A DNA stretch of 64,000 nt from Acetobacteraceae bacterium (GTDB lineage Bacteria > Pseudomonadota > Alphaproteobacteria > Acetobacterales > Acetobacteraceae): positions 1 through 64,000 of the forward strand of contig CANJJS010000019.1 in NCBI GenBank assembly GCA_947474705.1, given 5' to 3'. Shown here piece by piece: positions 12,373 to 56,806 of the stretch. Within the stretch, counting starts at the first letter, position 1. Each line of letters begins with the position of its first letter. A program made the position numbers and the translations under genes. Below the pieces are notes generated by a model that worked only from the letters and a program-made list of their open reading frames with translations, was not told the origin of the DNA and did no database searches.

Positions 12373-12439
12373 CGCGCGGTCGCGTCCGGCGCCAACCCCA
12401 CTCGCCGTCCCCTCCAAGGAACCAGGGCAATCGGGTGAA

Positions 12440-12682
12440 GGAAAGAAAGCCTTGGGGCTCCGCCCCAAACCCGGCGAGGGGCGTTGCCCCTTCGAACCCC
12501 ACCAGGGCGGGGGCCCTGGACCCATTTAATTGGGGGAGAGGAAGAAGGGGGCCATGCGAGACGGTTGCAACGTCCGAGTAGGCCCCCTTCTTCCTCTCCC
12601 CCAAAGAGGCGGCATCCAAGGCCCTGCCTTGGCGGGGGTTGAGGGGGCTCCGCCCCTCACGGGGTCCGGGGCGGAGCCCAGG
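12440..12682 (+). repeat. Palindromic intergenic repeat element, copy 1
   Basis: This fills most of the 392-base gap between the ligase gene and nadE. The core is a perfect 24-bp inverted repeat (12530-12553 with 12581-12604; arms start TTGGGGGAG and end GGGGGCC) around a 27-base loop that has its own small stem. Nested GC-rich palindromes flank it: GGGGCTCCGCCCC near 12454, CCAGGGCGGGGGCCCTGG at 12502-12519, and CCAAGGCCCTGCCTTGG near 12615. A second copy in the same orientation lies at 56555-56806. The short ORFs reading through it look spurious. Confidence 0.85.
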
Positions 12683-12764
12683 GACTCTCTTCCTTCGCCC
12701 GATTGGCCTGTCCAAGGAACCACCGCGCATGGCGGAGAGGCGCCGGGCGTGGCATGATGGCGGC

Positions 12765-56554: not shown

Positions 56555-56806
56555 AGGGGGGAACCGCCGGGGCTTTGCCCCGGACCCCACGAGGGCTTTG
56601 CCCCCAACGGGCCCTTGGGACCCTACCAGGGCGGGGGCCCTGGACCCATTTAGTTGGGGTGTTCGAAGAAGGGGGGCCATCCGAGGCGGTCCAACCGCCA
56701 CTGTAGGCCCCCCTTCTTCGAACACCCCAAACAGACGGCATCCAAGGCCCTGCCTTGGCGGGTTCGAAGGGCAGCGCCCTCGCGGGGTCCGGGGCAAAGC
56801 CCCAGC
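56555..56806 (+). repeat. Palindromic intergenic repeat element, copy 2
   Basis: This fills the 305-base gap between the MFS gene and the DUF4392 gene. The core is a perfect 25-bp inverted repeat (56654-56678 with 56706-56730; arms TTGGGGTGTTCG to GGGGGGCC) around a 27-base loop containing GGCGGT-CCA-ACCGCC. The flanks share with copy 1 the segments ACCAGGGCGGGGGCCCTGG plus ACCCATTTA, and GGCATCCAAGGCCCTGCC. The arms differ from copy 1 at several positions, yet each copy stays self-complementary. Confidence 0.85.

Follow-up and report, generated by a model that had tools for sequence, protein, structure and literature searches.

Template switching between inverted repeats is described by Abraham and Hazkani-Covo (2021, PMC8604942), in the part of that account drawn on here, as having two outcomes, the homogenisation of the arms and the inversion of the spacer. 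Both outcomes, arms that become identical and a spacer that inverts, are found in the family of elements described below, and the combination of matched arms and an inverted spacer is the signature of template switching published in those passages. The yeast cases presented there involve single genes, with listed inverted spacers of 2–5 bp, whereas the present family is dispersed and has loops of 26–27 nt; here, the two orientations are near parity in one genome, and exact inversions are found in a second genome and between this genome and a third. A related process has been described in RNA hairpins, where complete loop inversions are called very rare in the relevant passages of Monttinen and Loytynoja (2022, PMC8794818). 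The likeness lies in the compensatory changes of several bases, mostly without intermediates, and the difference in the loops, given that the inverted state is as common here as the uninverted one, which argues against a functional loop.

The REPINs are also dispersed bacterial hairpin elements with frequent compensatory changes in the arms, which are called common in the sections of PMC3116915 considered here. In those sections, however, the REPIN is formed by two inverted REPs tied to the RAYT transposases, whereas no copy of the present family lies near the sole Y1_Tnp match of the genome, and the ends of the mobile subset are of the DDE type. The REP palindromes themselves, of 20–40 nt, are reported in the excerpt of PMC3733652 to have a GTAG or CGTC tag at the foot, and inspection of the 71 aligned copies by eye showed no such tag at the stem foot. 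The MITEs of the ISAs1 family resemble the present elements in their common ends (CAGG.CAATCGGG), the target duplications, and a length too short for a transposase gene, but appear to differ in the internal nested palindrome of the present elements, and differ in that most of the copies are without recognisable ends. Foldback-like elements likewise contain long internal inverted repeats, although the central arms found here differ between copies, while matching within each copy. Among the matches listed in literature searches that reached few subscription journals, no publication dealt with this element family, or with loop inversion in dispersed repeats of bacteria. The unusual feature of this MITE-like family is the scale of both the arm matching and the loop flipping.

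The window is a stretch of 64,000 nucleotides of an Acetobacteraceae genome (contig CANJJS010000019.1, positions 1 to 64,000 of the forward strand), and contains two copies of the element. The earlier note had described a palindromic element present in two copies with alike flanks, arms of 24 and 25 bp that pair perfectly within each copy, and inner loop stems that differ and still pair (GACG...CGTC versus GGCGGT...ACCGCC). These observations hold as described, including the exact complementarity of both pairs of arms, and the family proves to be far larger than two, with 71 aligned whole-core copies. The bounds proposed for the first copy (12440–12682) fall inside the element, and were too narrow, in that copy 1 runs from 12423 to 12710, with a 10-bp direct repeat outside.

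Copy 1 is nested between imperfect terminal inverted repeats of 20 nt, beginning CAGGGCAATCGG and CAGGCCAATCGG, with the left repeat, CAGGGCAATCGGGTGAAGGA, at 12423–12442 (plus strand), and the right repeat, CAGGCCAATCGGGCGAAGGA, at 12691–12710 (minus strand), both recovered by pattern matching with 0 mismatches. The 10-bp target-site duplication, TCCAAGGAAC, lies immediately outside, on the left at 12413–12422 and on the right at 12711–12720 (both plus strand), and its two repeats are identical at 10/10 positions. The interior is a series of nested hairpins, all read here on the plus strand. It begins with the GC-rich side modules, whose arms (12443–12512 and 12622–12691) are 76% complementary, and the left flank hairpin, CCAGGGC...GCCCTGG, which lies in the left module at 12502–12519 and was recognised from the sequence and from the flanks of other copies. 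The central hairpin follows, with its left arm at 12530–12553 and its right arm at 12581–12604, each of 24 nt and 100% complementary to the other, on either side of a 27-nt loop (12554–12580), placed by the sequence and the alignment, with the orientation AT...TA and the inner stem GACG...CGTC. The right flank hairpin, CCAAGG...CCTTGG, lies at 12616–12632, within GGCATCCAAGGCCCTGCCTTGG, which served as the handle in searches for the family.

Copy 2 (approximately 56555–56806) has the same inner modules as copy 1, also on the plus strand, with a stem of 25 nt. Its left flank hairpin is at 56626–56643, the left arm at 56654–56678, the 27-nt loop, in the orientation AT...TA and with the inner stem GGCGGT...ACCGCC, at 56679–56705, the right arm, exactly complementary to the left, at 56706–56730, and the right flank hairpin, CCAAGG...CCTTGG, at 56742–56758. 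Neither the shared ends nor a target duplication were recognised in its flanks. When folded as single-stranded DNA, the two copies are far more stable than their dinucleotide shuffles (z of −9.3 for copy 1 and −11.4 for copy 2), and 0 of the 200 shuffles were as low for either.

A flank search of the source genome, of the kind that the earlier note had proposed, with the alignment of the whole-core copies, recovered a dispersed family with covarying arms. The 18-mer of the right flank returned 91 matches with up to 3 mismatches in this genome, whereas the reversed control returned 12. The loci with no more than 1 mismatch, together with a few others, were retrieved, and provided 78 distinct matches, of which 71 had an alignable core, including one (L021) that is without the left anchor, and was placed in the alignment by hand. 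The seven excluded matches are an unrelated sequence on the minus strand (L038), a locus whose right arm is gone (L070), and five derivatives that are missing the loop together with one or both arms (L040, L046, L054:1484, L059, and L063); near position 1484 of L054, two AGAT repeats border the junction, an arrangement resembling the outcome of slippage over a hairpin. A further full copy, L227 (G000:C2:48399–48522), was found later, and is outside the alignment. As these 71 copies were selected by the flank, rather than by the arms, arm pairing was not a condition of entry, with the exception of the losses named above.

The arms of this family are matched within the copies and different between them. 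In the source genome, the left arm, when compared with the reverse complement of the right arm, differs on average at 0.61 positions if both belong to one copy, and at 4.05 if they are from different copies (69 of the 71 copies, the two rows with indels being left out), and the arms of 43 of these 69 copies are free of any substitution. Over the 71 copies, 97.9% of the cells are paired, against 87.3% after shuffling, and the cells with a change on both sides number 141, the shuffled value being 31.8, with neither observed value being reached in any of the 500 shuffles. Unpaired arms in the other copies, or covariation at the level of chance, were the outcomes that the earlier note regarded as fatal to its structural claim, which survives because the other whole-core copies pair as well, and 0/500 shuffles reach the observed values.

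A second sample is provided by two genomes of the same genus, G032 and G016, with 34 and eight copies, respectively, which are the best matches to the covariance model, one doubtful locus (L144) being kept in. Here, the arms differ by 0.70 within a copy and by 3.17 between copies (40 of the 42 copies compared), 18 of the 40 are perfect, and the consensus arm differs from that of the source genome. The 42 copies have 65 cells changed on both sides, compared with 13.7 after shuffling, a value beyond all 500 of the shuffles. These copies were selected, as the best-scoring ones, by a covariance model that rewards pairing, so that their pairing is biased upwards, although the covariation exceeds what this bias alone explains.

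The variation is not spread evenly along the stem. Both in the source genome and in G032 and G016, the base of the stem and the inner GGGGGCC are nearly invariant, while the middle drifts. The length varies little, with arms of 24/24 nt in 32 of the 71 copies and 25/25 nt in 27, and the inner G-run is of equal length in the left and right arms in most copies (5/5 in 33, 6/6 in 26, and 7/7 in one), being discordant in 11 of the 71; that the two arms change length together counts in favour of copying. A near-constant base and inner end, combined with a variable middle, speak against purely neutral copying, which alone would not preserve the stem ends, so that some constraint must be considered in addition. 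The base of the stem, its G-rich inner end, and its length are probably also under some constraint, perhaps related to the nucleation of the hairpin or to a DNA-binding protein.

The compensated columns are mostly without intermediates. In column 26 of the alignment, for example, the pair is A-U in 48 copies and G-C in 21, with 0 cases of G-U, while column 27 contains G-C in 48 and U-A in 21. The alignment of the 71 copies as a whole has 13 G-U cells, in comparison with the 141 cells altered on both sides.

Compensatory change is commonly taken to be the best evidence of a functional RNA structure. An RNA-level function, in which the element would be transcribed and the stem maintained by selection (as a stabiliser of the mRNA, an RNase III site, or a terminator), with the compensatory mutations arising on one side at a time, would account for the strong covariation and the very stable folds, for the recurrence of the architecture across the family, and for the limited variation of the stem ends. 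It is considered unlikely, given that the step from A-U (48) to G-C (21) in column 26 has left zero G-U cells, and that the mismatches show no significant preference for the wobble pair. In the element's own sense, the arm mismatches of the source genome comprise 10 G.T, 6 A.C, and 26 others (42 in 69 rows), and those of G032 and G016 comprise 4, 5, and 19, respectively (28 in all), so that the pooled values are 14 G.T, 11 A.C, and 45 others (n = 70; 14/25, p = 0.69). If the two indel rows are kept, the source genome has 13 G.T, 6 A.C, and 29 others over all 71 rows, a lean toward wobble pairs that favours the RNA reading, in a sample too small to decide, which makes this a weak test.

The mismatches G.A and T.C together represent 32 of the 70 arm mismatches in the 69 and 40 compared copies, against 25 of the 70 for the transitions, and an excess of this type is the pattern expected from transversions of G:C to T:A.

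Further points against the RNA reading come from the loops, whose orientation is scrambled (see below), and from the comparison with known families, given that the covariance models of Rfam 15 have 0 matches at the curated threshold in the window, and the 27 matches at 12380–12760 are all below the threshold of their own family. The neighbouring genes also have no preferred orientation, with 18 divergent, 14 convergent, 13 + 13 tandem, and 13 incomplete arrangements (n = 71), as called by a crude, home-made reading-frame scorer, which is unreliable; the same unreliable scorer flagged 18 of the 71 copies as lying inside open frames.

The diversity of the arms themselves bears on the source of the matching. 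Eight of the 43 perfect copies have private arms, which are present in none of the other 70 copies, and in two of the copies (L032 and L065), the arms differ by 6 and 7 positions, respectively, from the nearest of equal length. For these eight copies, the simplest source is in cis, that is, the second arm would be copied from the first. Gene conversion, in which arms and loops would be swapped between copies as blocks, in either orientation, by homologous recombination, has no such source to offer for these private arms. This process is suggested by the chimeric copy L011, whose loop and right arm are those of L004, while its left arm is different, and by L062, L064, and L054:12137, which may join arms of two types, on the basis of one-base differences; the lack of an arm-class signal in the trees of the flanks is also in its favour. 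A one-sided block swap, however, creates mismatches, as in L011, rather than removing them, and gene conversion is considered a quite improbable cause of the matching.

Outside the modules, some loci have flanking inverted repeats of 29–62 nt that are specific to the locus, with identities of 42/45 in L037:6768–6892, 53/62 in L041:1561–1686, 29/29 in L049:1488–1613, and 44/50 in L051:1502–1627. In the 67 of the 71 copies analysed, the flanks score 31.6 with their own partners and 16.4 with swapped partners, and the own partner ranks first in 31. These locus-specific repeats may be old terminal repeats, in which an outward extension of the same copying would have maintained the pairing. In one locus of G032 (L144:325–584), there is a perfect palindrome with arms of 117 nt, which reach the end of the contig, and represent either a long template switch or an artefact of assembly; for this reason, the locus was set aside as a proof of long-range arm copying.

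The loops provide evidence of a different kind. When the copies are oriented by the right flank, the loop ends are AT...TA in 34, TA...AT in 24, and other in 13 of the 71. In the source genome, six pairs of loops (in 10 copies) are exact inversions of one another, compared with five identical pairs; the pairs up to 1 difference apart are divided into 25 inverted and 25 same, and those up to 2 differences apart into 59 inverted and 67 same. Loop orientation is, then, scrambled even among nearly identical loops. In the 42 copies of G032 and G016, there are 19 exactly inverted pairs, of which seven are internal to G032 and 12 join a copy of one genome to a copy of the other. These pairs derive from a few loop types, so that they are not mutually independent, and three of them involve L144. 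The loops are partly self-complementary, at 8–18 of 27 positions in four of the exact pairs of the source genome, and at 14–16 of 26 positions in G032 and G016, which means that near-matches between inverted loops are partly built in, while exact inversions are not. In the tree of the flanks, neither loop orientation (18 changes, with a shuffled mean of 18.9) nor arm class (16 changes, with a shuffled mean of 16.5) leaves a signal, and the flips can therefore not be dated, ordered, or given a rate.

Inversion by a site-specific system was also considered, and was rejected for want of a constant arm sequence: the middles of the arms vary between copies, and only the stem ends are near-constant. 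To our knowledge, the 51 bp that separate the centres of the arms are also too short for the known recombinases.

Near-identical palindromes are a difficult substrate for short-read assembly, which might in itself have produced both the flips and the matches. The copies are indeed alike and palindromic, and the perfect 117-nt arms of L144, running to the end of the contig, have the typical form of such an artefact; in addition, these assemblies are composed of multiple contigs, and an erroneous join between copies could resemble a chimera or, with more difficulty, a flip. Most of the copies, however, are internal to their contigs and have individual flanks, some have private arms, and two genomes that were binned separately each contain exact inversions, which are also found between one of them and a third, so that an artefactual origin of the pattern as a whole is extremely improbable.

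The means by which the copies were dispersed is indicated by their ends. Terminal inverted repeats of the CAGGSCAATCGG type are common to a number of copies, and bound 21 stretches, 20 in the source genome and one in G032, some of which are deleted or coreless. Among the whole-core copies, 15 of the 71 have the shared ends (CAGGSCAATCGG in most), including copy 1. Direct repeats of 10 bp outside the 21 stretches match at 73% of their positions, compared with 24–36% for lengths of 5–9, 11, and 12 bp, and 30% for swapped flanks, and 15 of the 21 stretches have at least 7/10 matches, against 1.2% of the swapped pairs. A stricter scan found duplications in seven of the 15 own copies with ends (controls 0, 1, and 0), five of the 54 other own copies (0, 0, and 1), and one of the 34 copies of G032 and G016 (0, 2, and 1), so that movement is evidenced for only a minority of the copies.

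The source genome also contains an insertion sequence of 925 bp (L226:1959–2883), the ends of which, CAGGCCAATCGGGTGAA and CAGGCGAATCGGGTGAA, match those of the element. Its reading frame matches the ISAs1 model NF033564 with 204.9 bits (cut-off 70), as well as DDE_Tnp_1_assoc, although the frame looks shortened, and the flanking duplication is absent (3/10). The ISAs1 elements have target duplications of 8–10 bp. Three stretches of 98–182 bp (L220, L221, and L222) have ISAs1-like ends and no hairpin core. Empty sites were sought for two copies (L051 and L041), using their left flanks, in the 33 genomes of the genus, and none was readable; the junction was reached in seven of 13 relatives for L051 and five of 11 for L041, where the sequence past the gene was not recognisably alike by eye. 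To judge from the sequences, the carrier is a MITE-like family, and some of the copies, copy 1 included, have moved as units, by means of ISAs1-type ends, with the formation of 10-bp duplications.

The hairpin might itself be the substrate of mobility, if only the foldable copies were copied by a transposase, or by another enzyme that reads the single-stranded hairpin; the arms would then look compensated, since unpaired copies leave no progeny. Integron attC sites are an example of a hairpin-read system. This type of selection would tolerate both orientations of the loop, and is consistent with the limited variation of the base, inner end, and length of the stem, with its freer middle, and with the presence of many copies in many species. 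A similar description of the REPINs is found in the consulted sections of PMC3116915. In the recognisably mobile copies, however, movement took place through ends of the DDE type (ISAs1), with 10-bp duplications, a long way from the hairpin, and the three stretches L220–L222 carry the same ends without the core. The only match to Y1_Tnp (IS200-like) in the genome, L229 (G000:C60:30789–31145), has no match to the covariance model of the element within about 1.5 kb on either side, and selection alone does not produce loop inversion. Taken with its points in favour, selection of the hairpin as a mobility substrate has a small, but real chance of being correct.

The family recurs among related bacteria. 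Matches to the covariance model were found in at least 21 of the 33 genomes of the genus (E up to 1e-4; own included), and, across the family, sampled with one genome per genus, in at least 12 of 80 (E up to 1e-6, with stricter filters; own included). Both strands of a near-palindrome enter the tally of matches for each genome, which is therefore different from a copy number. A plain DNA search matched 11 of 98 genomes, own included. By inspection, the single top-scoring copies of further genomes of the genus and the family have stems of a quite different sequence, which are long and mostly perfect. In G148, of another genus of the family, pairing extends almost to the end of the hairpin in four copies (L246, L248, L251, and L252), leaving predicted loops of about 4 nt. 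Given that the outermost and innermost pairs are near-invariant, and that the architecture recurs across the bacterial family, selection on the hairpin may perhaps act in addition to copying.

The reading preferred here, and considered reasonably probable, is that the arms of these dispersed, MITE-like palindromes are renewed by hairpin-based copying at the level of the DNA, rather than being kept paired by selection on an RNA. Of the two possibilities raised in the earlier note, that is, selection on a folded RNA or cruciform, and hairpin-based copying, it is the latter that fits better, because the loop orientations are near parity and single mismatches have no clear preference for G-U, while hairpin selection is the less favoured. 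The element, a dispersed, MITE-like set of nested inverted hairpins around a central stem-loop, would cause the replicating strand to stall at the palindrome, switch its template to the opposite arm, and then switch back. A switch of this kind would repair a mutated arm from its partner, and one that started and finished in opposite arms would leave the loop turned round. With repeated switches, the two arms would drift jointly, so that the copies would diverge, while each stem remained matched. All of these copying events are deduced from comparisons of the copies within genomes, with one genome per species.

A more far-reaching version, which is put forward tentatively and is on balance doubtful, is that of a self-perpetuating palindrome, in which it is the matchedness of the arms, rather than their sequence, that would be inherited across the family, being renewed by replication with little or no selection, and in which flips of the loop would outpace its mutation.

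The family pairs very strong covariation with scrambled loops and no clear wobble preference, in dozens of copies, and with matches in many related species. If arm copying is the correct reading, screens based on covariation have to be controlled for template switching, for which a simple measure would be loop inversion combined with the G-U to A-C ratio. The copies also provide ready replicates for the study of the frequency, tract length, and replication strand of bacterial template switching. If the palindromes are, in fact, self-perpetuating, they would be a warning that covariation alone is no proof of a functional RNA, and would act, in living populations, as natural flip-flop recorders of template-switch events.
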